Assembly: GCA_015039365.1 (NCBI GenBank)
Contig: WION01000048.1
Span: forward strand, 62,001-126,000
DNA from: Amanita rubescens
Taxonomy: Eukaryota; Basidiomycota; Agaricomycetes; Agaricales; Amanitaceae
Length of the DNA stretch: 64,000 nt
Reading direction: 5' to 3'
In this document: one piece after another, positions 25,344-44,241 of the stretch
Position numbering within the stretch: the first letter of the stretch is position 1
Layout: each line of letters opens with the position of its first letter
Made by a program: the position numbers and the translations under genes
The notes under the pieces: model-generated
Databases searched by the model: none
What the model was told of the DNA's origin: nothing
The model's input: the letters and a program-made list of their open reading frames with translations, nothing else

Positions 25344-25356
25344 GACCGTTAAGGAA
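25344..25356 (+). repeat. LINE target-site duplication, left copy
   Basis: GACCGTTAAGGAA here is repeated exactly at 44420-44432, directly after the LINE poly(A). A 13-base duplication is typical of LINE insertion. Confidence 0.85.
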
Positions 25357-26969
25357 GAGATATCTAGGTTTCTTTTTCGATCCTTTTCTTAAATTTCATC
25401 ATCACGTCAAATACTATACTAACAAAGCGTTCAGTACTATTAGAGCCTGCGGAATGTTAGGAAACTCGCGTCGAGGATTGAGTCCCAGGAACCGCGCTCT
25501 AGCTTACAAGGCAATCACTCTCCCGGTGCTTACATACGGTCTTGCACTTTGGTATGCGGAGGATGGCAGAGGAGTAAAGAAACAGTTGATGGAGATGAAG
25601 AGAGTCCATAACTTCGCTCTGAGATGGATAACAGGCGCTTTTAGAGGATCCCCATCGGGCGCGCTAGAAATGATCGCTCACATCCCCCCCCTGGATGTAT
25701 GGTGCAATCTATGCATTTACGGTTACGCCGCCAGGATCCACACACTCCCAAACAACCACCTGCTTAAAGTCGCCTGGTCATCGGATCTAGTTAAACCCTC
25801 GTCTAGGAGGATAAGGCCCAAAAGACGCCCACGTCATCTCCCGAGCGACAATCCTAACACTAGACTCAGAGCCTTTAGAGGACAAATTAAAGAACAATTT
25901 GACACCTATCACCCCGTCAACAGACCGGGACACAGGGTCGAAGATGTGTATGGAGAAAACATCGAACGCACAAAAATGGACGCTCCAAAGAAAAATAGCG
26001 ATGAGTTTGGCGGGTGGATGAGAGAGTATCGAACGTGGCTCAGAGAGGTGGAAAGCGATGAGGATGCCACTGTCATCTACACTGATGGCGGTTACTGGAA
26101 AGACAAAAGGCGAGGACGAGCTGCCTTCGTCCTGTCTGACCATGGATTATTTGACATTGCGGACACAGCCGACTGCCCGGCAGGCTCCTCTTACGATGCA
26201 GAAATAGTGGCCCTAGGAATGGCGGTTGCGTGGGCGGCTGCAAACAAAGAACGAATCAGACCCAACCTTTGGTTCATTATTGACAACAAAAGCGTCATTC
26301 AAGGCGCCCTGAACATGGACGCACACACCAATCAGATGGAGTCTGTCAGAATAAATCTCCTACTCTTGGACCTCTTTGTGGACAACACCATTCGGTCCCT
26401 TCATTTCGCACACTGCCCATCGCATTCAGGCATTGAAGGCAATGAGAAGGCGGACTCACTCGCTTCCCGCGCACCCCCAGCTACGACGGGACCCTTAATA
26501 TTGAAACAACACTTCACCGACGAGCAAAGGCGCCGCATGAACAACCTCTGGAGAATCAGAGCCAGTTCCCAAGCTTACAGAGGCCGACAATGGCTCGCTG
26601 TCAAATATAATCGAAAGCGCTTCCTACCCATGCTAGGCTCTTCAACGAAGAGAAAGAGATTCTTCTTTGAAATGGCGGATGACGATAGAGAGAGGATGAC
26701 GAGAATTACATATGCGATGACCAACCACGCACCGACAGGAGAACACAACCAAAGAATGTTCCCGGACAAATCAACAGATTGCCCAACGTGCCAACCTGGG
26801 ACTTACCAATCACGCGAGCACATCCTAACACGATGCAGGTATCACTTTTCTTTTCCTTCATTACGCGAATGGACTAACGATCCGAAAAACGACGTATCAC
26901 TTACTAAAATCATCAAAGAAAATCCTACTATATTTTCGTTTACTGATCTTCCCCTCGATGTACCATAGT
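25357..26969 (+). mobile_element. 5'-truncated LINE retrotransposon with RNase H, left part
   Basis: The open frame runs from about 25358 to 26968. It begins inside the reverse transcriptase (RYLGFFFDPFLKFHHHV, then NKAFSTIRACGMLGNS and LAYKAITLPVLTYGLALWY), so the 5' two thirds of the element are missing. A full RNase H domain follows, with IYTDGGYW, DAEIVALGMAVAW, FIIDNKSV and GIEGNEKADSLA supplying the acidic residues. A CCHC-like end has CPTCQPGTYQSREHI and RCRYH. The frame ends with the stop at 26966-26968. The untranslated tail and poly(A) are now at 44242-44419 because a 17 kb element inserted here. The coding part looks undamaged, so the LINE is young, although truncated at birth. Confidence 0.9.
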
Positions 26970-26995
26970 ATGTTGCGCGAAATTGGACCAAACCT
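26970..26995 (+). repeat. left terminal inverted repeat
   Basis: The segment GCGCGAAATTGGACC... continues to CAAACCT, pairing with the inverted sequence at 44207-44233. About 17 of 20 bases match in the core. Confidence 0.75.
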
Positions 26996-27015
26996 AAACA
27001 TTGGGAAAAATTGTG

Positions 27016-27262
27016 CGTGATCATCCATCCCACGCGTGGCCAATTAATGACCACGCGTGGCCACGCGTTATCATGCATGGCCATGCATTATGGTCATTTT
27101 CCCATTTTTTTTGTCCCATGCATGGTAACGAATCCATCCAAAAGTAGTGCGTGGGTCGCACATGATAATTCATTAACCTTCCAAATCCCCAATTTCCCCA
27201 ACTCGTTGCCCACTCGTGGCTAACGCGTTGGCCACCCATCGCCACGCATTACCATGAGATTA
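27016..27262 (+). repeat. left subterminal palindromic array
   Basis: Short palindromic words such as CCACGCGTGGCCA, GCGTTATCATGCATGGC and GGCTAACGCGTTGGCC recur at irregular spacing. The same words in other order occur at 43870-44210. Arrays like this next to transposon ends usually bind the transposase; that role is inferred here. Confidence 0.75.
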
Positions 27263-27485
27263 GATATGTACGTTAAAATACATTGCATTTCACGTAGTTG
27301 CCGCAATTGTAAATACATAATACTATTATAATTGATAACATCTATATGTATAGAATCCTAATACGATAGCAAGAAAGCACTGCGTATAAAAACAACTAGT
27401 ATGTACAGTGAGTCCCCAATGACTCTTCGATAGCAAGATAGCAAGAAGGAGAGCGTGCGGTCAAGGAAACCAATAACAAACGGTC

Positions 27486-28798
27486 CTAGATGCTGTTGGT
27501 ATTGTCTCCATCATCTTCATCATCGGCGTCATAGCCGTCGTCACTCTCGAGGTTATGATAGACGCTACCACTATCGTCTATATCGGCGTCGTAGACGTCA
27601 TTGCGCCCGATGCTTGTGCAGCGCGGAATACTGAACTGCGACGCGTCTGTGTCGGTATCATCTCCATTGGTATCGTAATCGACATCGCCTTCGACGCCGG
27701 AGCTGTTCTCGTATGTGTCGGTCGTATCTGGCGACATAATGTTCTGAGGAACATGTGGGGCAGATAAGTTATTTATGTGTGAAAGAGTTGTGGTGTTGAA
27801 ATCGAGTACGCGGCTGCCAGACGAGGAGAAATGGAAGACAGGCTATGGCACCGTTAGCAAAATGACAGAGAAGGAAAGATTCGATACTCACTGGATAACC
27901 GTTACCGTGATCATTTGTCCCTACAAATCTCCCGCTGCCTTCGGTGTTGAATCTGCCTTCGGCATTGAAATCGAGTATGGGGCCACCAGACGAAGAGGAA
28001 TGGAGCACAGACTATGACCCGTTAGCAGAACGACGGACAACGAAGGATTTTACACTCACCGGAGAGTGATCCACCGTTCTCTCGCCATCTTCCTGTACGA
28101 ATCTTTCCCTGCATTCGGCGTTGAAATCCAGTACGGGCGTACCAGACGAAGAGGAAAGGAGCACACGCTATGACCCGTTAGCAAAACGACGCAGAACGAA
28201 GGATTCGACACTCACCGGAGAACCGTTACCGTAGTCCACCGTTCTCTCGCTACCTTCCTGCGTAGACGCCAGCAGTCTGCGACTGTAAGAAGATTAATAC
28301 ATTGTACGTTGACCCGGGTACTTACTTTTCAGTGTCAAACTTCATTTTGTTGCGGACGGACTTGGTGGTAGTTGAAGACGAGTGCTAAGTAAATAAGTCC
28401 TCGCCGTCATTCAAAGCAAACAAGACCGTACTCACCTTTATAAGCGGTGACTGAACGATTGTGGTGGTGGAGGAAGCAGTCACGTTCTAACACGCTGAAA
28501 GTCAATTCTTGCGGTCAATAGAGCAAATAAGACCGCGCTTACTTTTTTACGGTCTAGCTACGAAACTTTGTAGTGGTGGTGGGTGATCGGTGATGGTAGA
28601 AGTAAAGGACTGTGTTTATTGATTCTCGCGGTCACTGAAGGCAATAGAGCCGTACTCACGTTTTACGGTTGGAGGGATTACTGAAAGATAATAGTTGAAG
28701 TATATCGCGTTCCAATGAGTAAATAGAGCCGTACTCACGTTTGAACGTGGTGTAATGACTGATGTTGCGACTGATAGAAGAATGATAACAACCGACAT
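27486..28798 (-). CDS. element gene with triplicated exons and acidic C-terminus
   Basis: Read on the minus strand, the 3' exons join in phase without stops. First, TASSTTTIVQSPLIK, HSSSTTTKSVRNKMKFDTEN and RLLASTQEGSERTVDYGNGSP. Then three related exons: VLLSSSSGTPVLDFNAE, VLHSSSSGGPILDFNAE and VFHFSSSGSRVLDFNTT. It ends with an Asp-rich tail (YDADIDDSGSVYHNLESDDG) and a stop at 27486-27488. The introns between the repeated exons are themselves related (gtgagt...gctaacgg...catag), so the duplication unit was exon plus intron. The likely start is the ATG at 28796-28798, with a hydrophobic leader VVIILLSVATSV, inside the inner inverted repeat. Exons 1-3 could not be joined in one frame, so the 5' end is uncertain. 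The product might be secreted. No family is recognised. Confidence 0.5.
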
Positions 28799-29110
28799 AA
28801 GAGTTGTTGTTCGCGCGGCCTAGAGTGACGCGTATTTTGAACTGTCGTCCAACTCGCCCTCCTCGAGTCTTCCGTCATGCATTATCTGGATTCTAATACA
28901 TTAATGGTGTCCTTAATGTACTGCTACCACTGAATTACATGGACTTCCTCTTCTCCCCAGCACCTGGTGGTTAGTGATAAATTAAACCACCAGAATGAGA
29001 TCGAATATACCTTTTTTCCTCTGCTCACGCCGATGCCTCCTACTAGTCACTTCGGCGAACGTCGTCGAATCAGCTCAATTGATCATTATTCCCGTGACGT
29101 CACCGAATAC
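28590..29110 (+). repeat. inner inverted repeat, left arm
   Basis: This arm matches 43130-43690 in inverted orientation with moderate divergence, for example the shared words cctcgagtcttccgtcatgc and tagagtgacgcgtattttga. The right arm has about 65 bases more between gtcgtcgaatca and gatcattatt. It includes the 5' end of the element's leftmost gene. Confidence 0.85.
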
Positions 29111-29306
29111 CCCGAACGCATCCACTGCTGATCTCCTAAAAGAGAATAGACACTACCACTCCTTGGGGATGTACGGAGAAACACATATCTATTTGAATTC
29201 ATGTCCCCATTTGAGGTGGGGCGGCTACCCGGGCATCCCGAGCTCCAAAGTTACCTGCGACAACGCGGAAAAAGTGTAACCCCCACGGCCGGGGCCCGTC
29301 TACGGC

Positions 29307-32300
29307 ATGTGCTCGGAGAACCTATCCGAGGAACGGGAAAACATGAAAAAAAAAAAGCCTCTCTCTACGCATCCCTTGCTCCCCTCTCTCATGCCCGCCG
29401 TAAAGCCTTTACCAGAACGCGAGGCATGCGCTTGGCACAACTGCGACTGCCCCTTGGCAATTTTTCCTGGAGTCCGAACCGTCGCTAATAACCCTAACGA
29501 GGGATGCGTCTGCAAGCATCCTTGGTGGATGCACATACCAGCCAGTTCGGCCTCCACAGCATGTGGTGGTTGCCCCTTGAGCCACTGTGGAGGGTATCAT
29601 CCCGCGGTAGGGCTTCGGTGAACTATCAGATACGTCAGTAACTTATGTCTAAGGAAATAGGACGAAGGGCACCGTCGACCTTGTGTCTGTGGCCAGCCGT
29701 ACGGAAGCCACCAGCAGCTTGTCTCGGCTCCATCCGAGCACACAGATGCGGCTGCTGTGGCGCGCGCCCCTCGGGCACACGCGTACACCGATGTCGTTGG
29801 GGCTCCATCCGAGCACGACATAGATGCGGCTACTGTGGCGCGCGCCCCTCCGGCACACGCGTACACCGATGTCATTGGGAGAGTACGGGGGTTTGACACC
29901 TATAGCTCCTCGACCCCCAATCCTCCTCCTTCCACCGTCAACGCCGCCAATCGGGATCGAATCCAGGCAGCTGAGAAACATAGGGGCAGGAATTCCCAAA
30001 ATCGCAACAGAGGGACCCGCCCCCATCAGGAACGACTCGCTGCTGCCGAACACGTTGTTGCAGCCATTGAACTTAATTTCGTAATATGGCCCTTTGTTGT
30101 GCGTCTGCCTCTGTCACGGATTTAGAACCTCTTCACTAACTTCAGATACAGTGTGACATTACCTCTTCGTACGAGGGACATGCGCCGCCCAAACCGAAGT
30201 TCAACGAGCGGAAATTCGGAGCGGTAGTCGATTTGCTATCTAAGCACAACCTGATATTTCCTGTGAATTTGACTCCAGACACGCCAGAACCGTGGAAGGT
30301 AATCGATCGGGTTTTACACGAGCACCTAAGGACGCATGAATTCAAGCTTAAACGTTCAGACAAAGACGATGGCAACACCTTCAATTCATTGGCTTGGGAC
30401 GTCTTGGGTCGTAAAACGAAGGCCCAAGAGAATTTCCAAACCGGATTAGCCGCCCTCGGTAATTTTACGGTCCAATTCTTGAATCGCCAAGCAACGGAGG
30501 TGAAGATAGAGAGTACTGGCCGCAAGGTTTCTTGTGTCTTGCTCGGTATGTGTTTGCCCCGTTGTCCTCAACGTGTCTTCCGCTCAACTCCCGTACTAGC
30601 GCCGACAGAGGGCAACCTCCGCGGTCCCGTCTCTAACCTGGATAGGGACGCGCCCCTCTGTCACCTCGCCCATGCCTGCTTCCCATGGCGTCTACTGGCG
30701 CATTTCAAATGGCTTAATCTCAAAACGAACGTCCAAGGGAGCCGTTGTATTAATAGAGAATGCCCCAACCGTAATTCTCTCCGTCGTCGTCGATCCCCTT
30801 CGACAACGGTAAGGACATTAACGAAACGCCCGTCCCACTTCTGAACCAATCTCAACAGCCTAATGCCCGAAATGTCAGACAGCGTCCAACCAATTCTAAG
30901 GAGGAAACGGATGAAGAAAGGAGTAGCGATGATCGTTCTCCATCTCCTAGAGTAGGTCATGGTTTGAGCCATGATTCCTATTCTCATACCTTCCCCACAG
31001 GCGCCACGCCGTCACTTCGCCAAGCCGGACTATATGGAGGTATCAGATGATGAAGACATGAACGATGATGAAGACGACGATGAAGACGATGGAGACGTCC
31101 CCGCCGAGCTCGCCATGCCTAAAGCAGATATTGAAGAGGAAGAGTTTGAAGAAGACGACGAGGTCCAAATTGTGAACCCTCCTCGCGGTGATGATATGGC
31201 AATTGAGAGGGACGGCCACCTTATAGATGATAGCTTATATGATCCCGTGGAATCCCCGGTTCTGAACAACTTGAGAGCCCTACTCGACAACGACGATGAC
31301 GAGCAGAAACTTCTTCGACTCGACATGAAAACCCTCGAAGCGTGGCAGAACCACCTTCGGGCCCAAAGTGGCCAAGAAACTTTCACCATCCAAGCCCCCA
31401 CTTTCAAGGAGGCCTCGCAGACGTTAATCGATATGGTGAGGGTGTGGAGAATCGAGGTGGACGATAGGAAAAACAAGCCTGCACATTTGACGATGGGGGC
31501 GGGCCCGCACCAATACCAGCCGATACCGCCCGTTGAATGTGAGATCAAGTCCTGGCGAGGGCTTTTGACTCCTCTTCGCCCTTTTGTCTTGTAAGTGGCA
31601 ATGTACCTCGCAGAAACACCCGTTGATGTGGATTCAGAGGTGAAGAAGCCGCCGGCGCGAACGGTGACGGCCCTGCGCAAAGTATCTACCAGGGAGCTTT
31701 GACCATGCGCCTAAACGATTCCAAACGTTGGGTTTCCTTCCAAGGAACATATAGCTCTTTGAACTTCGGTCATCCTCCCGGTCTTCACCCCACCAGAGGA
31801 AAGGTAGAATTCCAGGTAGACGGTTCTTTAACTGCCCTGGTGATGATTCAACTCCTAGTGGAGCCCCACCCGATCAACCCGTTCCTGGTGTACGCCGCTC
31901 TCTTCAATAGCCCTGCGTGCCTTGAATTCCTCTTGCACCCTTATAAAGACTACCACCCCAACCACCTGCTCGCAATGATCCAGGATAAGTCAACACGCGA
32001 CACTTTTGCTGCGGCACTTGTCTTCCCAGTTGGGGAAAAACTCGACCCGGCAAAAATCGCCAAAAATCTAGTCTGCCAACGAGCGGTGGAGAAGGATCTT
32101 TCTCCTGCCGGTCTATTTATGGACCCTCTCGATGAAGCTCAACACAAGAACTTCATGCACCTCATCCTGTCGGACCTGCTCGTTGGAACTGGGAAACCAT
32201 GGGAACATGATCAATTCCTAGCTTTCACCGAGGGACTCCGTATGCATACCTTGATCGGCTCTCTCGTCACTGACGTGGGTTTTGATACACAAAACGACAT

Positions 32301-32887
32301 GTACCTATACGCCTTCAAGCTGGTGTCTACTCTCTGGAACAACAGGATCGAATCCTATTATGACGTCTTCAACCGGATTTCCTTTCGTTACGGGTGTGAA
32401 CGTCAACACGAGCGGGAGGCCAGGCTTTACGCTCAGCTATTTATCATACGTTTCTACCGTTGGATCCGCGGTAAGGGCCATCCACGTCAGCTAGTCGGAA
32501 GCGTCGTGGCGAAGGATAAATACGAAAGCAGTTTGAAATCACCGCACACCACGAGGGCCGAAGTGTTTTGGAAGGCGGTATCTGACATGGTCGTCCTGCC
32601 TCCGAACAAGGACCAAGACGTCACGGTAAGTCGTTGTCCAGGTTCTCTTGCCACCCTTCCCTTGTTAACCCCTGCCTCAGCTACGCCTGAAATATATGCC
32701 GTCACTGCTCCCTTCTCGACACCGAGCGTCTGTGGTGATCCACACTTGCTTCAAAGAGATGTCCATTGTTTTAGATCCGGATGTCAAGAACTTGCTCCTT
32801 GAACCTAACGACAAAGCGCAAACTATCTTTGATCTGTGGTTCCACGTCTTGATGGCCTCTTCGGCGAATGATTATAACGCAATTTAA
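29307..32887 (+). CDS. large element-borne protein with Cys-rich N-terminus, unknown function
   Basis: Exon 1 (from 29307) encodes a Cys/His cluster, CAWHNCDCP, then GCVCKHPWWMH and CGGCPLSHC, which could bind zinc. Exon 2 holds two tandem copies of a 27-residue unit (VARAPRAHAYTDVVGAPSEH and its repeat). Exon 3 has KFGAVVDLLSKHNLIFPVNL. The middle is acidic (SDDEDMNDDEDDDEDDGD). The 3' exons, 31611-32625 and 32682-32887, give RWVSFQGTYSSLNFG, PHPINPFLVYAALF, QHEREARLYAQLFIIRFYRW and a last segment with IFDLWFHVLMASSANDYNAI. That final block matches my memory of a highly multiplied agaricomycete family of unknown function. Splicing between 30540 and 30960 is unresolved. Possible role: a structural or accessory protein of the element. 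Confidence 0.6.
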
Positions 32888-33031
32888 ATTGTTCATACAT
32901 GTAAAATTGTACTTGGCGTCAGTAAACGGCAGAATTAATGAGATGATGCGTTCTCTCACAGTTCCGTATACGATGACTTGAATGCAATACTGAGCTTCTT
33001 CTACTCTACTACGACATAGATTAAGAGCTAT

Positions 33032-35097
33032 TTAGAATAGGTCTCGGCACCACACGAGAGCACATATCCAGACCCTAGTCTTTACGTCCATGTCGTAAGT
33101 ATTCATGTCAAATTCCCTTTGAAGGACAGCGTCCAGTCCGTCCACTTGATCCATAGTCAATGGGCAGTCCGGTGGTTCACACGGCACATCGTTCATCCTG
33201 TCCGGCGCGTAATCGTCGAAGGGATTCTCGCCCCTCTCTTGCAACGCCTGAATGAGATCTTCATCGTCCATATCTTCCCAATCAATACCAAACTGGCCCA
33301 GATCGCGGACGTCCTCCTCTTGTATCCTTATGTCATCCACAGCCATGCGTCTTGCCAACCCAATCATGAACATATCCCGCGGCGCCTGGTTCCTCTGTCC
33401 CTTGAGTCGCATGACGTGTGAATTCCATTGCGCCGTCCATCGCTGGATGTCATCGTTTACGTTGGCAAGGAATAGGTGATGCAACAACCATAGGTGCGCA
33501 GCTGAATCCACTCGCAGTCCGTGTTCCTCTTCCAGAGCTCGGAAGAAGGGTTTCCACTTCGCGATGATGATACGTCCCACTTCTACCCATAACCTTTCAA
33601 TCCGAATGTTGTGCACGGACCTAAATCTCTGTTCAACGCTTGCATTATTCGCTCTCGATTGTCAACGCTTTACCTTCCCCATATGTATGATCCGCGATTT
33701 TCACCTCGTTGCTCCATCATGTATGCGGCCACTCGGACATTTTCCGTTCCATGGTCCCCACGGACTCGACTTGGAAGGCCATTTTTTGTAACAGCCTCTA
33801 CAAAGACGTTTAGAACGGTGGCCGCCCTATTGTTCGTGCTGCATCTTATTCCCGTCACGTAGCGGGATTTACCATCGATAAAGCCGTGAATCACGAATTT
33901 CCATCGAATAAGTTCTGAAAGCCAGTTAGCACGAGCCTGGAGAAACACGAACAAATGCGGACTCACTATGATTTCCATCGTGATGCCACAAGGAATTTAC
34001 TTCTGGGACCGAATACACTCGCCTCTGGATAGGTCGGTTGACGAAGCGGGGTTGCAACCCTCGCACTCTGATCAAAGAGTCCCGTATGCGATCTCGCTGG
34101 ACAGTGAAACCTTGGGATCGGATATCACCCTTGACCGAGATTAGACTGTAGTTGGGGAAGCATTCTAGAATGCTTCCCACTAAGCGATCCAGACCCGCCG
34201 GATCACCTTTGAAGTCAAAACGCGTCGGTCCAGTAGGATGCCACTCCTTGGCTTCAGTCCCATCAGCTCGAACAATGTTCCGGATGACGGGTGGCGCGGG
34301 CTCGGCAAGGCCATAATCAATAAGGCGTCGGCGAACAGTTCGGGCAGAACACCCCACAGCTTTGCCAATGTCGATTAGCGTCATTCCGGCACTCGCGAAT
34401 GACAGAAATTTCTTGTCTATCACGGTACGAGGTCGACCTCCGCGCGGCCGCCCTTCTCTGTGAGCCAATGGCAACGGATCCCTCTCTGCGTCGTCTAGAG
34501 CTGCCGCTATGGATGCATTTAAACTTTCCAGCATCTGTTTAACCGACACTTGTAAAAAATCATATTCGTCTTGTTCCAATAGGTTTCGTGCCTACATGAG
34601 AGCACATGTCTCACATTGTCTCACATTGTACATAAGATGACTCTCACGTACCCGTTCCGCATCAGCAGCAAAAGCGCGTACTTCGTCCAATTGGGCCCGA
34701 AGTCGAGTGACATCTCCATTTTGGATGCGAAGGGAGAGGGCTACGCGTTGAGCTATGTCTTCGTACGCGTTTATCAGAGCATCGGCACGATTCACGACCA
34801 ACCGGGCGTGAGGCGGGTGGCCGACGGCCGCGTTTAAAACTTCGATCATCTGGTTAATATTGGCATGTAGGAATTCATATTCTTCTTGCTCTAATACGTG
34901 TTGCGCCTGCATTGCGTGAGAGTCTCGCATTAAGATAAATTATCTTGACATACCCGTTCGGCGTCTACCGCAAACGCACGTACTTCGTCTAACTGGTCCT
35001 GAAGGCGCACGCCATCTCCTTGATGGATGCGAAGAGAGAGGTGGACGCGTCTGGATAGGTCTTCATATGTCGCTATCAGAGCTTGGGTGGGATCCAT
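33032..35097 (-). CDS. D,D35E integrase/transposase with HTH domain
   Basis: Five exons (34954-35097, 34652-34906, 33967-34591, 33674-33914, 33032-33620) give 617 residues in one frame. The N-terminus holds a repeated helical unit: [19 protein letters not shown] and [19 protein letters not shown], and LEQEEYEFL and [10 protein letters not shown] helix-turn-helix follows ([20 protein letters not shown]). The catalytic core runs from [18 protein letters not shown] through [24 protein letters not shown] and [14 protein letters not shown]. The acidic residues are about D337, D395 and E430, a D,D35E spacing like retroviral and IS3-type integrases. The [14 protein letters not shown] type is known to me from fish and fungal genomes as an rve-like core. 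The gene is intact, so the element may still move. The C-terminus ([13 protein letters not shown]) is acidic. Confidence 0.88.
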
Positions 35098-35191
35098 GAT
35101 AAACTGGACGGGCCGAGGGGACTTCGCTTTCTGGCGGAATTTAAATACACGGAATAATTTTTTTTCAGGTTGTTGCTTTCCTCCCAGCCCT
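35098..35191. promoter_or_regulatory. divergent promoter between integrase and neighbouring element gene
   Basis: Ninety-four bases separate the two start codons. A run of seven T at 35159-35165 and the sequence tttaaatacac near 35140 could serve as core promoter for either direction. Co-expression of both genes is a reasonable inference. Confidence 0.5.
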
Positions 35192-37101
35192 ATGCGACGA
35201 CATTCTAGCCGACAGCGTCGCCCTGCACTCAATCCCGCAGAAAGTCTTATACCTCTTACAGAACGAACCATGCCATCAGTCGGATCCACGGGGCCACCCA
35301 ATGACGCTGCTGTCGCGCCATCCAGTACCCCCATCATGGGCAACGGGGAAGATGGCACTGAAGAACACCTCCCATCACAGGCCCCACCCACAGGTATGTC
35401 TGCAGAAGTGGTTGTCATGCTCAATCCAAATCTGAGAGCTGGATAGGATCCCAGCCGGTCACTAACCACTCCGCCCAAATCCCTCAACGAGTCGGCGAAC
35501 CGAATGACGCCAAAGAATGGAAAGAAAATAAGATATTCTGGTGTGGATCCAGCGATCAACTTTTAGAGAAGACGTTAAAGGAAGCGGTTGAGATGGGAGA
35601 AAAGTTCGATAAGAAGCTTCTAGAGGAGATGCGAGTGCTGGGGATGCCGATCCCCCGTGCGACAGATCGTCCAGCATCGGGTACGAATGCGGTATCTAAT
35701 GGTGAATCCACCAGCCGTGTCCCACGCGCGACAGATCGTCCAGCATCGCGTACAAATGTGGTATCTAATGATGATACCACCGCCAGCCATGATGTCCCGC
35801 CGCCCAATGCTGATACTATATCGGTTCATAACGGGACTTCTGCAGTGACCTCGGCGAACGATCAAACCACTGCCACCACCGCCAGCCATGTCCCGCCGCC
35901 CAATGCTGATACGACATCGGTTCATAACGGGACTTCTGCAGTGACCTCGGCGAACGATCAAACCACTGGTGCCGGTGGTGCCAGCGCTCAACGTAACCAG
36001 GGCGAGCCATGGATCGTAGCCATTGGTCTTCAAAATGTGTCTGGTGAAATCGAACAGGTAGTCGTTTTGTTGCCACTTGGTCATGGCCCTACCGTAGCCA
36101 AGGTCCTGGATTGCCTCCGGGACGAACCCCAAGCCCGTGCTTTGCGTGCACGTTTGTCGCAAATGAAGTCAGATGCTGTCGAAATACGGACTGCAAAGAA
36201 ACCGCTGCATACCGCACAGATCGCCAAGTTTCGAGGCAAATGGGGCGACCAATCGGAATTATTGGGCAAGCTGGCTGATACTCAGCTAATGCGGCAGTTA
36301 GTCCCATGCGACAACTGTCAAGAAAGCGAAGACATACGGGCATTCGTGGGGTCCACCATTCCACGCACCACTCCAATTTTGGTGGTGTATATGTTTGAAC
36401 TTCTATCTGAAGAACCCTCGTACGCCAATCAAATTAGGCGGGCCGGAGAGGGTCAGGATGCGTCGTCCATCAATAATTCCGGCCTAGGCGCTGCCAGTCG
36501 TCTGGAGCCATCGTTCCCAGTCAATGTCGTTTTGACCAAAGAGACAGCGCGTCCTCAATTGACGGACGAAATATCTAAATATCTCGTTGCGATGAAAATC
36601 GAAGAGAACTTGCGGGTATACGAGCACCATGTACTCCAGCAGCCGGGAGTTGGCACGGTGTTTTCCACGATCGTCTTTGCAAGGCTCGTGGAAGCGGCGT
36701 GCGAACGCATAGGGATTCCATACCGCGATCGAGTACCGGTGTACCAGAAAAACCTGGTGAAACATGGAGCTTGGATGGCTTGCGTAGACCAAATCGTGCT
36801 TTTTTATGGTCAGAAATTAGCCTCCTGGGGATACAACGATTCAGCTCCAGCACCCTCCACTTTTGAAAACCACAGATCGTTGCACATGCGCGCCCTCAGA
36901 TGTCTTCGGACGGCCGAGAAAGGGAAGGGAAAAGAAAGCCTGGGAGAAGAGAGTGAAGCCTTATTGCGTTCGCTGAAAGAAATACTCCTTACCCCGCTAG
37001 ACCGGCTCGATGAGGTAGACGCCGTGTTTCCGTCTTTATACAATTTTAATGGCAGCGTTAACAAACTGCTAAAAGCGTTGGGAGGGAAGGCAAAGGAGTA
37101 G
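35192..37101 (+). CDS. element-borne protein with internal repeats, unknown function
   Basis: The proposed start is MRRHSSRQRRPALNPAES at 35192, with a first intron of about 100 bases beginning gtatgt after PPT. From about 35480 the frame is open to 37101: WKENKIFWCGSSDQLLEKTL, then a low-complexity part with tandem copies of RATDRPAS and of PPPNADTISVHNGTSAVTSA. A folded-looking part follows with VVLLPLGHGPTVAKVLDCLR, FRGKWGDQSELLGKL and DEISKYLVAMKIEENLRVYE. It ends FNGSVNKLLKALGGKAKE. No known domain is evident. It is divergent from the integrase, so it may be an accessory subunit for transposition or a regulator, which is inference. Confidence 0.62.
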
Positions 37102-37213
37102 TCAGACAAGCTGGAATAAGCGTCGCAAATTAAATGGCGTACCATTCTAACGAGAAATATACTATATTTTAGCATAGTATCAAACAAAGCTCTATGTCCC
37201 CTGAACTTGGATC

Positions 37214-37630
37214 GTTTTCAGAAAGGAGTAATCCGAACAATGCAATTGCAGCTTACCTGCCCAGCTCCCTGCGCAATACGCCCCAGTAGGAGGCGATCTG
37301 GACGTCGAAGTCACCTGCGCAATGGCGTACCCTCATTGTACGAAAGGGCGTCGCGTCATCAGTTGGATGCCCCCACTAGGAGGCGATCTGGACGCCGACA
37401 TATACCCTATCCGTACGATCGTGTTTTCAGTAAAAAGGAGTAATGCAATTGCAGCTTACCTGACCTGCTCCCAGCGCAATACGCCCCACTAGGAGGCGCT
37501 CTGGACGTCGAAGTCACCTGCGTAATGAAATACCCTCTTGGAACGTGGGGGCGTCATTAGTTGGACGCCCCCACTAGGAGGCAGCCTGGATGCCGACGCC
37601 CGACGTATACCATATCCGGACGATCGTTGA
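37214..37630 (+). repeat. two tandem copies of a ~210-base unit
   Basis: Copy 1 (37214-37422) and copy 2 (37423-37630) both begin near gttttcag...aggagtaat and share caattgcagcttacctg, gacgtcgaagtcacctgcg and atccggacgatcg-like ends. Each copy carries two instances of cccactaggaggcgatctgg, giving four in total. No open frame uses the region. Confidence 0.8.
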
Positions 37631-38440
37631 TACTGGTTTCTATAAATGGACGAGGCGGGCACATTTGCATGATCAATATAACGCTCGTCGAAGTCGCCCT
37701 CAATGCAAAAGAATGTAGAGTCGCCTAGCTCACAATCTCTCTTCTTCGAGCAATGAAACATGGACAGGAAAACACTGCAACATTCATGGTTTACAGGCCG
37801 TCTCTCAACAATCAGTCATTTGACAACCAGCTTCGGATTCGTGATGAGCGTGCTATTCCTCTACAGGAAATGAATGAAGTTCATGACATTGCATTGCTAT
37901 ATACTTTTATTTATTATACAGGAATGTCGTCGGCATCGCGTAGAATACTATGCCCCGTCTGGTACGACGGGGGACGAAAGGAAGGGCATCCGGAGTTTCC
38001 CGTCCTATTTAAGCCACGTCAACGATGCCGTTTGGGTTTGTTGACAGGACCGATTCCCCCGAATATTCTCGGGGATTCTCAACAACCTAACGTAGCCTAA
38101 CGTTAACAGTTTGCGCCCCATCAATGTGCCAACAGCAACGTAACGCGTGTACTTAAGCGAGCGAAAACCTTACGTTTTCTCTTTCGTACTTCCATCAGTA
38201 GCATCGTGTACCGTAGTAGAACGCGTATTATTACACTTGAGCATTCCAGTAGACATCAATAGTAAGTCTTGTCATTTGGCATGAGATAAAGCTTGAGTGG
38301 TCGAGAGCGTTCATGAGTTGACGGCATAAGTCAGATACTGACTGTCCTTTATTTAGAGAAGGACAGAATCGTGAAGGATGAGCGCCCAGGTAACACGCTA
38401 GAGTTTCGCATGCGGAAAAGCTCTGAAGCTTGTTAATAGA
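37631..38440. other. intergenic stretch within the element
   Basis: A 115-codon open frame at 37753-38100 is present but has no recognisable motif and no clear splice partners. The bases before 38441 are probably the promoter of the Spt5-like gene. Confidence 0.35.
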
Positions 38441-41400
38441 ATGACAAACGAACCCACAGTCCGGTGGAGAGAGATAATCGCAAGAAACGAAGGATTGCGG
38501 TACGTACGGGAGGCACTAACGCAGAAGTCCTCACTGATCCATTTCTTAGAAGCCTTTGGCAACCGAATTCCTGGACGTAGAAGCGGCAGACAGTGGATCC
38601 GGAGAAGAGTGGGCAGATTTTGAAGACGAGGGTGAGTTTAAACTATCGAAAAAAGTCATGTTTTTATTGCTCATATTATCTCAGCAATCGGGGACTTCAT
38701 CGACGATAACGTAGGAGAAACGGGGGATTCGGAAGAATCAGAAAGTAGCCAGGATGAAAGCGAAGCTGAGTGTAAGTCGACGGACACGTATTCTGTTCAG
38801 CCCGGGATAACTCATGTTGCATTAGCTGAACCGGGAGTTTACTGGGAGGACTTGCCCAAGGATCATCGCATGTTGGACGTGATTTCAAGCTACGAGGCCA
38901 GGAACGCCGCATCTGAGGCGACCAACGATTCCGCCCCACCAAAGTCGGACGTGGTGGATTCTTTGACAGAGCTTGTAAGCCGAATGCCCATGCCTTCTGA
39001 TCCAGGCGTTTGGAGGGTTCGCATATGGGTGAGCATGTTTTAATCATGGGGAGAGCTACTGTTAACGCGTTGGCGTTGCAGGAAGGTACTGGGGAAGAAA
39101 GCCTCTTTGTCCTCTCGGATCGTCTCAAGGCTCGCCCAAACTTGGCCATTTCGGTATTTTGGCCACCAGGCAGTGGGACCTGGATCTTCGTAGAAGCGAG
39201 TAAACGAGAGAACGTACAAGATCTGTGTAACCACTTGTCCACGATGCCTCACCCGTTGAAAATCGAATTCGTACCCGTCGAAGAACGTGTGCGTTCGCTG
39301 GACTGGCATCATCAACCCACACCCGCTGTGACCTCTCCATCATGGGCTAGACTCAAGAGGAAATGCGAATTGAAGGATCTGCTACGGATAGAGCCACATT
39401 TTGACAAGAGATTAATAAAATACGGAAAGGATCTGGCATACGTGTGCGGATGGTTGACGGAATCGTTGGTCCTGATCTGCCTTGTCCCGCGCTTATTGGT
39501 ACCAATCGATAGCGGCGCTTCTCTCGAACCGAGGCAGGGCGAAGAACATAAACGACCAAGAAAAAAACGCTTGCCCCGACTTTTGCATCCTAAACTGCTT
39601 GGAGATCCACAGGAGGCACTTGACATAATGCACATAATCGAGCCAAACGTGTGGTGGGTTCCGAAGAAAAGATACGAGCTGGAGAGGGTGGTATCTGGCG
39701 TGTACCAGCTAGCTAGACGCGGCTGGAAAAAATGCGTAAGGGGAGGGGACAATTTTATGCCACCTTTCGCATATTATTCTGTTCCTCCAGCAGCCCTGCG
39801 ATCGGCGAGTGTCGTGCCTAAATTAGGGGAACTGAAGTTGTTCGGCGAAGGGATGGCCATCGGAGCGCAGCAGCTAGGCTTCTCGGCTCCACATCCAGAC
39901 TTCTTACGGTGGTCATACGAGAATCATTTCGCCGCACCTCTTGATATGGGCCAGAAAGTGGAGGCTAAATTGATTGGGGGCATGATCCAAGGAGTCATCG
40001 AGGACATTCGCCATGATGAAGTTGTAGTGCGCACGCAAGACACCCGGGAGGAGCATGAAGTCCATCTTCATAGCGTCCGAAGATTCTACGAAGTCGGAGA
40101 CAAAGTCAAGGTCGTCAAATCGGCCCCCGTTGATAGTGAAGGATGGGTAATAGGTGTCCAGGATGATCTGGTAAATGTTTTCGATCGCAGACGGAAGGAA
40201 GAAGTATGAATTTGTGTCGCTGTCCGACGAGTACTGACCTGGGAAAAGTTTCAAGTGAAATCATGGCAACTCATCCCATACGATAGCTTTGAATGGGGTT
40301 TCGAACGGAAGATTCAAATCGGTGAGACGGTGCAGGTAATAGCGCCCATATCGCCATATTACCAACAAAACGGTCGAGTTTGCAACGTCTCCGACAGCCG
40401 TGTCGATGTGGTCGGCCACTTACCGAATACGCAGGTCTGTTCCTGTGTAAAGTGTGTTAGAAAATATCTGACAGCCGGATTACTATAGTTCTCGGTCCCT
40501 TACTGGTTCCTAGAGGTGGATGATGTCGTCAGTCCCGCAGGCGTTCAGCAGCAGCCGCGCCAACCGTGGGCTTCGTATGATCGTTATAAGGAGCTGATCA
40601 ATACGTGGGTCTTTGTCACCGGGAACATTCCCGAGAAAGGGTTATATGGCAGAATACGAGGCCATCTTGGGAATCAGATTATGCGCATCGAAGCGAGATC
40701 GGGAGCACGGATTGTGGATCTACATGTTAATTTCTTGATGAATGCGTAAGTGACTGAAAGAGTATATATATTCATGACGAAACTCATTTAATAATAGAGA
40801 CGACAAGGGTCGGGATCTAGAGACATATTACACTGAACTCTATCCAAAACCAGCTAGGGGGGGATACCGAATCCCCAATTTCATAAGAGTGCCAGAACGG
40901 TCAAGGACGCCAGGAGTTGATGAGCAGATCGACCAATCGGTTGCGGTCGGGGACGTTCTCGATATGCTTTTGCCTAATTCTGAATCCGCGACGGTCGATG
41001 ACCAGGCAGCTGTACCGTCGGTCTCAGAGGAAAACCAGGGTGGGTCTCCTAGCGTGTGATGTATTAACTGGAGCTCATGATGTACAGTTTATGCCGCTGA
41101 CTGGCTGATGAAAGACGGCTTAGTGACCAAGCGAATATGGGCCCACATTCGTAACTCCAACGCGTACCCAAATGGTTTTGCAAGGGGCTACTATGAAGGG
41201 GAGAGGGTCCTGATTTTGTCCGGTGAACGGGAGAACGAAATAGAAGTGAACGTTAAGCAGCGGACAATCATGATCCCATCCAGGTTCTTATGCCCACAGA
41301 TACCGACATCTAGGGGGCAGGACGTAGTTGTTATCAGCGGTGAAAACGTTGGCGAACAATTCCTCACTCGCAAGCAAAAGGAAGATGGCTCTTTTCCACT

Positions 41401-41476
41401 GGGTCGTCGGGGTCACAAAGGGTTACCGATATGCACTGTACAGGCGAGCAAACTGGCGAGATGCGATCCGGTGTAA
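38441..41476 (+). CDS. Spt5-like protein with acidic N-terminus, NGN and KOW domains
   Basis: About nine exons give roughly 880 residues. An acidic start (LATEFLDVEAADSGSGEEW, then IGDFIDDNVGE) recalls the acidic N-terminus of Spt5. An NGN-like domain follows: GVWRVRIWEGTGEESLFVL, then PNLAISVFWPPGSGTWIFVE. The KOW part has SWARLKRK, KYGKDLAYVCGW and ICLVPRLLVP, with further KOW-like segments at VEAKLIGGMIQGVIEDI, FVTGNIPEKGLYGRIRGHL, GYYEGERVLILSG and GQDVVVISG. Introns at 38506, 38632, 38772, 39027, 40204, 40435, 40747 and 41039 (approximate) remove stops and keep frame. Spt5 travels with RNA polymerase II and controls elongation. This copy is divergent and sits inside a transposon; C-terminal repeats for kinase control are not seen. 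It could promote or redirect transcription of the element, which is inference. Confidence 0.78.
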
Positions 41477-41577
41477 TGGATCGAGGACATTTTTAGATCA
41501 GTTATTTACAACCGTGAATCGAGGCGAAGGATATGTGATTAACTGCAATTAACCACTGCGAACGGGTGATCAAGCAA

Positions 41578-41850
41578 ACCGCTGATCGGGAGATCAACGG
41601 AAGAGGGGAGAGGGGCCTTCGATTCCCTATTATTTCGGGCGGCGGAGATCTGGGAAGAGATCTTCCGCAACGAGATACCGGCGGGCGAGCCGTACGCGAC
41701 GAACAAAGGAAGGTGATTACACCCAACCGTTGTGCACCGACGGAGCTAGGTCCGCTGATCGGGAGATCAACGGCAGGGGCCTTCAATTCCTTTTCCTTAT
41801 CATTTTGAGACAAGGCGGATGCTGGAAATAGATCTTGCGCAAAGAGAGAT
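41578..41850 (+). repeat. two imperfect direct repeats of ~175 bases
   Basis: gctgatcgggagatcaacgg occurs at 41580 and again near 41756, each followed by ggggccttc and later by agatctt(c/g)cgcaa. The repeated word contains the near-palindrome gatcgggagatc. Confidence 0.75.
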
Positions 41851-42079
41851 GGACGAGCACAGGAGCTGTAACAGGTGTTGCGAGTCACCGGCCTTCACGG
41901 CGGTCGACCGCATCATTTATTTCACGCCTAGGCAACGCATTAACTGATCACGCGTTTTGACAGAAAGGGATCAGAACACTGCCGGGATGGTAGCGTCCGG
42001 GCCGTGCAACCAATAGCTCGTATACTCTCCTGCTGACGATGGGAACCAATTGAATAGTTTCTACAACAAAGTAACGCTG

Positions 42080-42580
42080 TTATATTGGATCATTTACAGA
42101 AGACGACGCGGCGCCGTTATCCTCAGACGGAGCCGGTGACTCATATGGCACTACAAACCACTGAAACCAGTTGCAAGTATTGTCTTGGCGTAGAGACGGA
42201 CGGCTCACCTTTTTACCCCTTTTTACCAGTTGAACGCCCCTTTGGTGCATATGCAAAGCGTAATGACGGTCGACCATTAAAGAGAATGCATCTTGAACCT
42301 CAATATCCTTGATTGACTGCCATTCCTTGCTCGCCATATGCTGACGTAGATTTTCTGGCAGTGGTTCCAAATCCTCGTCGTGGAGGTCTAAAAAATCAAT
42401 GAAGTAATCGCAACCTGGACAATTCCACACGAAACGGCCGGATGGAATAGAAGGCGGCAGCCAGCAAAACCTCGGAACGCGTTCAACGAGGGCTGGGTTC
42501 GACATCTCGTCGTCAGAATCAGAGTATGAAGGCGTAGATGGTTCAGAAAAGTCAGAATCATCATCCGCGGTATGTGACAC
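42080..42580 (-). CDS. small acidic protein with a Cys2His2-like motif
   Basis: The frame encodes 166 residues: an acidic Ser-rich start (DDDSDFSEPSTPSYSDSDDE), then WNCPGCDYFIDFLDLHDE and, 40 residues on, RHYALHMHQRGV. The C-x2-C and H-x4-H spacing could form a zinc site, and FVWNCPGC resembles small fungal finger proteins I cannot name. A further upstream exon is possible, since the frame is open across the ATG (QDTPTVSHTADD after an acceptor near 42597). It lies between the Spt5-like gene and the inner inverted repeat, pointing toward the former. A DNA- or RNA-binding role is a guess. Confidence 0.5.
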   Translation of the reverse strand: MSHTADDDSDFSEPSTPSYSDSDDEMSNPALVERVPRFCWLPPSIPSGRFVWNCPGCDYFIDFLDLHDEDLEPLPENLRQHMASKEWQSIKDIEVQDAFSLMVDRHYALHMHQRGVQLVKRGKKVSRPSLRQDNTCNWFQWFVVPYESPAPSEDNGAASSSVNDPI

Positions 42581-43129
42581 AGTTGGCGTATCCTGATTAG
42601 AGTCTAACGGTGTGGTGAGGACAAGGCAACATTGTGGTAGGTCAGTTATAGAGAGAATACATACTCGTCATCGTGTAGGATGTGATAATGAGGCGGTTGG
42701 GAAGGTGACATTATTTATCTGATACGGAGGTAGCTCTGGTAAATGAAAAGGCGGGTTATATAAATCTGGTGTGATGGTCGTGATGTCTGATTTCTTTTAG
42801 GCGATCAGAGGTGGAACGACGCTGGGGTTGTCGCATGTGGTTTGACTTGAAGGTTTGAAAGGTATATCACAATCAACGAAGGAACAATTGCTATGTTGTA
42901 TTAATGTAAGTTATGTTAACACTCTCTACGTCGAAGTCTCAGGGTCCTGATACGTTTTCGGGTTCTGGTTCAGGAATAGATTTCCGACTGTGAAGCCTGT
43001 GGATGGGAAAATGATTTCATCACTCAAATTACCATTTGGCTGCTATTGTTAGGAGACGGGATAGGTCCCGGGATGAAGATTTACCGCGCTTTGCCACTGG
43101 TTTCATGATATATGTGATCAAGCTACATT
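42581..43129. other. element interior without a supported gene
   Basis: Only short frames occur, including 43036-43230. This part probably contains the promoter of the minus-strand finger gene. I see nothing else. Confidence 0.35.
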
Positions 43130-43690
43130 GGGCAATGGGTGACGTCACGAGAATAATGATCGGTGTTAGCGATTTGGGTCAAGTGCCAGTTCCATTCGCG
43201 CTCGCCGGCGTTGATATATCGTATTCTTAAGGATGATTGAGTTGATTCGACGACGTTCCCTGAAGTGACTGCATCGCCGTGAGCAGAGGGAAGGTGTGTT
43301 CGATCTCACTCTGCTTATTTAAATTCTCGCTAACCACCAGGGGCTCAGGAGAAGAGGAAGTCCGTGTACTGTTCCGCACACTATAATCTATTAGAATGCA
43401 GATGACTCATGCATGACGGAAGACTCGAGGAGGGTGAGTTGGATGACAGTTCAAAATACGCGTCACTCTAGGCCGCGCGAACCACAACCCTTATTTCGGT
43501 TGGTTATCATTCTGCTATCACTGCTATCAGTCACCACATCAGTATTTACACCACGTTCGAACGTGAGTACGGCTCTATTTACTCATTGGAACGGGAGAAA
43601 CTTCAACTATTATCTTTCAGTAATCCCTGCAACCGCAAAAGGTGAGTACAGTTCTATGATTGTCTTCAAGTGACCGCATCGCGTTGTTAA
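43130..43690 (-). repeat. inner inverted repeat, right arm
   Basis: This is the partner of 28590-29110 in inverted orientation. The arm includes a copy of the leader of the leftmost element gene. Confidence 0.85.
43413..43673 (+). pseudogene. truncated twin of the leftmost element gene's 5' end
   Basis: The plus strand reads RLVIILLSLLSVTTSVFTPR, followed by the same gtgagtac donor and tctttcag acceptor as the left copy. The ATG of the left copy is ATT here (near 43493), and the later exons are absent. It is a by-product of the inverted repeat. Confidence 0.65.
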
Positions 43691-43869
43691 TCGTATATTG
43701 CTACTTCACATAGTGCCTCTATACATAAATACAACTCAAATCAACATTGTAGTATGAAGTAAAAATCGTTGGTTGCTACATAATTAGTATTGTAGCAATG
43801 CGGCGTATACAAAATGGTACTTATATTTACAATAGTTGAGAAACTAACGATGGATTTAATGAGGACAAT

Positions 43870-44210
43870 GATATTGGGCAACGCGTGATTAACGCGTGAT
43901 TGTGGGTGGGCAATGCATAGGCAACGCATGGTGAAATCAGGCTAACGATTATTTTGCAACGACGAGGTGGGAGTTTTAGGAGGGATAATGAATGATCATC
44001 GCGTGATCATTCGTTTGTTTGGATATTAAGGAATGATCATCGCGTGATCATTCGGTTGTTGGGATATTCATCAGGGGTGTATCATGCATGGCAATGCATG
44101 ATCATGCGTGGTAATGCGTGATAACGCATGATAACGCGTGGCCACACGTGGCCACGCGTTGCCAACGAATGACCATGCGTTTGGGGTGTGATCACGCATG
44201 ATCATCAGGT
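43870..44210 (-). repeat. right subterminal palindromic array
   Basis: Repeated words include tgatcatcgcgtgatcatt (twice, near 43993 and 44035), gcatgataacgcgtggcca and cacgtggccacgcgttgcca. They match the left array in content and in distance from the element end. Confidence 0.8.
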
Positions 44211-44233
44211 TTGGCCCATCTTCGCGGAGTAAA
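44207..44233 (-). repeat. right terminal inverted repeat
   Basis: AGGTTTGGCCCATCTTCGCG is the inverted partner of the left end at 26976-26995, followed by gagtaaa and the ACCATAGT duplication. Confidence 0.75.
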
Positions 44234-44241
44234 ACCATAGT

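Follow-up and report, generated by a model that had tools for sequence, protein, structure and literature searches.

The window analysed here comprises 64,000 nucleotides of contig WION01000048.1 of the fungus Amanita rubescens (denoted C418 in the 75.7 Mb assembly of 786 contigs), and its positions 26970-44233 are occupied by a DNA transposon of 17,264 bp, which starts at 26969 if an invariant T is counted. The element is flanked by a target-site duplication (TSD) and has an empty site elsewhere in the genome, its inverted tips recur at different sites, and its transposase is intact with a catalytic triad, as judged from predicted splicing. It is very probably an autonomous cut-and-paste DNA transposon that relies for its movement on an rve-type (IS3-like) D,D,E integrase of its own. 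Two further genes, B and D, lie beside most related integrases of this genome, and in one clade of elements, including that of the window, a gene with homology to Spt5 is kept in the same order and strand.

Borders, ends and recent movement

The left border falls between ...GTACCATAGT and ATGTTGCGCGAAATTGGACCAAACCT and the right border between AGGTTTGGCCCATCTTCGCGGAGTAAA and ACCATAGT, the element being bracketed by two copies of ACCATAGT. As a query for the empty site, both flanks were fused with a single ACCATAGT (428 nt) and searched against the genome, where they align unbroken over the junction in 17 of the 36 matches listed, the best at 99% (C578). The window locus itself accounts for two of these 36 matches, covering query bases 1-269 and 262-428, and the shared bases 262-269 are the duplicated eight. 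Because uninterrupted matches exist elsewhere, the long interspersed nuclear element (LINE) at this site has been interrupted by the insertion, whose point is the stop codon of the LINE open reading frame (ORF; 25346-26968). The interrupted LINE, by which the preliminary description had delimited the element, and the size of 17.26 kb that it gave are both borne out. The 8-base duplication it reported is present as well, but the preferable reading is a duplication of 7 bp next to a T owned by the element, because T precedes ATG in all 21 end pairs described below, including those where the target base differs. Likewise, the inverted repeat at the termini is real but short, with ~20 imperfect bases followed inward by motif arrays. 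The features of the ends are as follows.

26962..26969, no strand: left TSD, ACCATAG, plus T at 26969 that is probably the element's (flank comparison, empty site, end pairs)
26970..26995, + strand: left terminal inverted repeat (TIR), ATGTTGCGCGAAATTGGACCAAACCT (copy alignment, pattern searches)
27013..27250, no strand: left subterminal array of RYGCRY-type motifs, four at exact 10 bp spacing (element positions 84, 94, 104, 114)
28628..29079, no strand: left arm of an internal inverted repeat, ~0.45 kb, ~81% identical to the right arm
43236..43677, no strand: right arm of the internal inverted repeat, ~81% identical to the left arm
44084..44199, no strand: right subterminal array, six RYGCRY motifs at exact 10-bp spacing (95-145 from the right end), with three others
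44207..44233, - strand: right TIR, inward from the end TTTACTCCGCGAAGATGGGCCAAACCT (pattern searches)
44234..44241, no strand: right TSD, ACCATAG then T (flank comparison, empty site, end pairs)

The left terminal 300 bp hold 10 RYGCRY motifs and the right nine, against a window mean of 1.16, and similar motifs are seen in the aligned ends of related loci. These 10-bp-phased arrays are candidate transposase-binding sites; the integrase would bind the 20-bp tips together with the arrays, excise the element and reinsert it via a staggered cut of 6-7 bp. The arms of the internal inverted repeat lie 14 kb apart, away from the tips.

Two further near-identical copies are present on C9 and C164, with flanks that differ from those of the window. 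The C164 copy differs from the window element by 14 substitutions in 15,691 bp, its contig ending at the base matching 42657, and the C9 copy by 7 substitutions in 15,603 bp, with one substitution and one gap in the last 1,667 bp. The pattern CGCGAAN{2,6}GGNCCAAACC has five matches in the whole genome and none for the reversed control, and since all five are ends of these three copies the tip pattern is not due to chance. The integrase, A, B, D and Spt5-like genes, as predicted models, are open in all three copies. Hence an integrase claimed to be intact proves open in each copy with its D,D,E triad kept, and together with three near-identical copies at distinct sites and an empty site this agrees with the earlier suggestion that the element is active or recently was. 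The C9 copy also carries an LTR-type (long terminal repeat) insertion of 2.35 kb at the base matching 42571, whose direct terminal repeats measure 333 bp and which is flanked by a repeat of 5 bases. This insertion disrupts gene H; the same gene is truncated by the contig end in C164.

The tips define a wider family. Allowing up to 3 mismatches, the left-tip pattern has 114 genome matches compared with 13 for its reversed control, some of them being right-type ends, and the right-tip pattern has 58 compared with 0. For the pairing of ends we kept 66 of the 100 left-pattern matches listed (114 in total) and 56 of the 58 right-pattern matches; the 36 discarded matches looked like right-type ends or chance. 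Among the kept ends, 22 facing pairs occur within 30 kb, spanning 1.2-27 kb, and two of these pairs use the same right end, on C157. Four are of 14.03-14.05 kb and four of 17.72-17.74 kb, besides the window element at 17.26 kb and the C9 copy at 19.61 kb, and twelve pairs of 1.2 to 27 kb, two sharing one end, are without a detected integrase. Integrase loci were counted as 32, namely 31 of 32 search rows (the fragment C66:32862 left out) with C3 added. Both family ends, among those kept, stand at 10 of these loci, and at four of the ten (window, C9, C57 and C223) the flanks show matching duplications of 6-7 bp. Fixed positions without flanking repeats, the arrangement that had been named as speaking against a mobile element, were not seen for the loci of the near clade defined below.

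The duplication was examined in 21 end pairs, 19 of them hand-picked and the others those of the window and C9. With T counted as part of the element, an exact TSD was found in 13 pairs, with 6 bp in six, 7 bp in seven, and varied sequence, while mismatched flanks reached 6 or more in only 3 of 420 control combinations. The remaining eight of the 21 pairs have no TSD of 6 or more, which counts against cut-and-paste insertion. The three control exceptions, of 7 bases each (C645 left with C223 right, C277 left with C49 right, and C318 left with C35 right), are each within one subfamily of near-identical copies, and because these exceptional flank matches join such copies, part of the missing duplications is attributable to swapped halves, arising either from assembly misjoins or from recombination between copies.

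Short elements of 1.2-4.6 kb are bounded by ends of this family (C473:196250-197464, C599:182883-184256, C13:2072-5323, C650:178909-182137 and others); several of them have duplications of 6-7 bp, and they are likely non-autonomous derivatives. At C3:40388-80322, family ends lie 39.9 kb apart around gene D and pieces of an integrase and of an Spt5-like gene, in an element perhaps swollen by nested insertions.

The integrase and its accompanying genes

Six open genes were modelled with an in-house splice model, their splice sites being predicted. All of the integrase, Spt5-like, Cys-rich, repeat-rich and triplicated-exon genes listed in the preliminary description were located.

27486..28345, - strand: gene A, with triplicated exons, 5 in all, and a predicted product of 221 aa (repeat analysis, splice model); no significant Pfam match
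29307..32887, + strand: gene B, predicted 1078 aa, 7 exons; N-terminal part rich in Cys, acidic middle portion, C-terminal 390 aa conserved
33032..35097, - strand: integrase/transposase, 617 aa when started at MDPTQ, upstream of which the model extends, 5 exons; helix-turn-helix followed by the rve core
35192..37101, + strand: gene D, repeat-rich protein of a predicted 618 aa, 2 exons; in head-to-head orientation to the integrase
38441..41476, + strand: Spt5-like gene, predicted 864 aa, 8 exons; parts resembling NGN and KOW
42080..42671, - strand: gene H, predicted 176 aa; no significant Pfam match

The integrase matches PF24764 at 7.9e-66 and the rve family PF00665 at 2.2e-6, the latter under the family cut-off. 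Its triad, D338, D395 and E430, does not vary among 18 aligned rows, and 34 residues separate the second D from E. An N-terminal helix-turn-helix (HTH) precedes the core and, like HTH_21, a domain of IS3 transposases that was found in one of four members at 0.0053, is reminiscent of IS3-type transposases; the HTH_21 match is a hint only. Among the Pfam matches of these four members at E up to 1, no zinc-finger family appeared and HTH matches were present instead.

Pfam gave no significant match for genes A, B, D and H. A HECT-type ubiquitin ligase was considered for the C-terminal part of gene B from an eye-spotted FW...HTCF, and rejected since hhalign against the yeast Rsp5 C-lobe aligned only 9 columns at a probability of 0.6%; as a control, Pfam scores the Rsp5 C-lobe string as HECT at 3.3e-33. 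The same part had no match in a PDB profile search, Pfam or NCBIfam. Two single-sequence AlphaFold models were unusable, with mean pLDDT of 32.3 and 33.9.

The distribution of these genes was examined within 15 kb of the 32 integrase loci. Match rows were merged by hand to loci (73 to 54 for the Spt5-like gene, 41 to 28 for gene D, 126 to 63 for the KDZ transposase PF18758, and 72 to 42 in one other set); at least three KDZ places (C772, C311 and C110) were omitted, none of them on a contig with a listed integrase or Spt5-like locus. Gene B is found near 27 of the integrase loci (0.53 expected), gene D near 26 (0.36 expected) and an Spt5-like ORF near 17 (0.68 expected), and the strand of gene D is opposite to that of the integrase in 26 of 26. 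The term cargo, used earlier for the genes beside the integrase, is therefore wrong for B and D, which are conserved partners of the integrase and probably serve movement or its regulation.

In the near clade, made up of the integrase loci that score at least 62% identity, 16 of 18 loci carry genes B and D together with the Spt5-like gene, with order and strand unchanged and spacing similar, the Spt5-like match lying 5.4-6.9 kb from the integrase match. The exceptions are C157, which has stops, and C132, which is a piece. Identical copies do not count as independent, and the 16 loci make up four subfamilies, namely the window type with three, the C12 type with two, the C42 type with seven and the C57 type with four. 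A second integrase clade, at 41-48% identity, comprises C27, C66, C76, C103, C146, C201, C223, C771 and C784; most of its members have genes B and D in a different arrangement, and an Spt5-like ORF lies within 15 kb only in C146.

The Spt5-like gene and its possible role

As a single sequence, the Spt5-like protein matches PF03439 at 0.0012-0.0033, below the cut-off, and SPT5 in the PDB only at 0.11. A profile built from four family members, on the other hand, finds the SPT5 chain 5oik_Z at 9.4e-7, and of the 17 sequences listed in this search 14 are Spt5-named, another is RDM3 of plants and the remaining two are unrelated. The match spans an NGN-like stretch followed by a KOW-like stretch in the right order. 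NGN and KOW homology of the 864-aa protein to the Spt5/NusG family, which had been proposed by motif, is thus supported by a family profile. Like host SPT5 and the plant SPT5-like protein RDM3/KTF1, it combines NGN-like and KOW-like sequence, and it differs from them in that its gene lies inside a transposon and in that the match is weak (9.4e-7 with the four-sequence profile, 0.11 alone). Signs of constraint are present: the pair C247/C557, with 82% amino-acid identity, has a dN of 0.096 and a dS of 0.262, and the window gene compared with three relatives has a dN of about 0.43 and a dS of 1.7-2.3. The excess of dS over dN points to selection on the Spt5-like protein, in the case of C247/C557 at loci without an integrase.

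Proteases, methylcytosine oxidases and silencing suppressors are among the proteins encoded by transposons, but we know of no transposon with an Spt5 paralogue. In the one clade where it occurs in constant arrangement, the Spt5-like gene would be an added and maintained component. Its most likely role, which we hold tentatively, may be to aid transcription of the element in chromatin silenced by the host, helping RNA polymerase II through so that the long genes stay expressed. If true, this would give direct access to the way in which transposons of fungi evade silencing by the host, as well as a natural test of what Spt5 must do, and the open, recently moved copies make the role testable.

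A number of observations weigh against this reading. At 13 of the 14 more distant integrase loci there is no Spt5-like ORF within 15 kb, the exception being C146, where it has another orientation; C3 is counted among these 14 although it was unscored in the integrase search, and its Spt5-like piece lies 20 kb from the integrase, beyond the limit. Of the 54 Spt5-like loci, 37 have no integrase within 15 kb (for example C247:12206, C557:30730 and C79:125743), and a kept family end stands within 12 kb at only six of these 37 (1.4 expected), so that the gene may also live in other repeats; the 37 loci may represent family members that suffered deletions or whose ends have drifted, or else some other repeat. 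Furthermore, the 5oik_Z match sums weak stretches of which the best alone reaches 0.12, the dS of the window gene is near saturation and the C247/C557 pair comes from integrase-less loci, and in-frame stops interrupt Spt5-like matches, with one TAG in the C57 type and two stops in C719, which may be introns or decay. The claim that the genes form one system is consequently supported for the near clade, with 16 of 18 loci, and is limited by the distant loci and by the many Spt5-like loci that lack an integrase within 15 kb. By this distribution, genes B and D are features of the family at large, and the Spt5-like gene is a feature of a single clade.

It is possible, though rather doubtful, that the Spt5-like gene is a passenger, a host-derived family spread by several kinds of repeat and acquired once by the ancestor of the clade, with no role in the element. 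The 37 integrase-less loci of 54 and the 13 distant integrase loci of 14 that lack the gene are what would be expected of a passenger, whereas order, strand and spacing are kept in all 16 near-clade loci despite an identity of only 48-51% between the Spt5-like proteins of the other three subfamilies and that of the window (40% for the C719 piece), and dN is low against dS. Nor does spread by KDZ elements fit, since a KDZ transposase lies within 15 kb of just two of the 54 Spt5-like loci (1.35 expected), and this association was rejected. Less probable still is that the protein steers integration, riding RNA polymerase II and bringing the integrase to transcribed or LINE-rich chromatin: the insertion in the window does lie at the stop codon of a LINE ORF, and the homology is to a polymerase-bound factor, but elements without a detected Spt5-like gene exist.

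Relationship to known transposons

The closest name for these elements would be IS3EU. IS3EU transposons have an IS3-like rve transposase, a TSD of ~6 bp and a TAY start. The present elements differ in being 14-18 kb long with four to six genes, in their Spt5-like gene, and in a right end TTTRCTC that misfits the TAY rule of IS3EU; the TSD is 6 bp in six and 7 bp in seven of the 13 clear pairs, next to an IS3EU figure of 6 bp. The arguments are evenly poised as to whether these elements fall within a superfamily already in Repbase (IS3EU or one related to it), novelty then being confined to the accessory genes, given that the layout of HTH plus rve fits IS3EU, that HTH_21 was matched in one of four members (0.0053), and that IS3EU is among the eukaryotic DNA transposon superfamilies of Repbase listed in PMC4455052. 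None of the names sought is present in the curation guide PMC8969392, and a literature search on G2E3 and transposons yielded nothing relevant among the matches listed.

As a more doubtful proposal, they may constitute a superfamily of their own, made up of large fungal DNA transposons with several genes and an rve integrase, whose duplications are of 6-7 bp, whose tips are asymmetric and whose subterminal arrays are phased at 10 bp; one clade of it would have its own Spt5 paralogue as a putative anti-silencing transcription factor.

Ginger1 and Ginger2/TDD are likewise cut-and-paste transposons with an rve integrase, and in the sections of PMC2836005 that describe them they have a TSD of 4-5 bp (CCGG/CCGT, or within RTATAY), TGTNR termini, TIRs of 40-297 bp, an H2C2 zinc finger and a length of about 2.6-7 kb. 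Here, by comparison, the TSD is 6-7 bp, the tips are TATG/TTTRCTC, the TIR is ~20 bp and the length 14-18 kb, and a zinc finger was not found in the Pfam matches of four members. Because TSD length, termini and zinc finger all disagree with this description, Ginger1 and Ginger2 are excluded.

A viral origin or a Maverick/Polinton element is hardly credible: the size and the rve integrase would fit, but the hallmarks of Mavericks are a protein-primed DNA polymerase B and capsid genes, and no polymerase, capsid, ATPase or protease was matched by Pfam in the six gene models and nine ORFs, while five IMG/VR scans gave no confirmed relative, which is weak evidence because they used few peptide patterns.

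Large multi-gene forms of KDZ (Kyakuja-Dileera-Zisupton) transposons exist in basidiomycetes, and PF18758 is abundant in the same genome (126 match rows). Membership in this group is ruled out by the transposase, which is a different one, with no PF18758 match of Pfam in the element; moreover, a KDZ match lies within 15 kb at none of the 32 integrase loci. Left-side parts of the element (triplicated exons and an inverted-repeat arm) recur at ~70% identity at C264:27577, C136:48415 and C109:18927, and that of C264 is less than 2 kb from a KDZ match.

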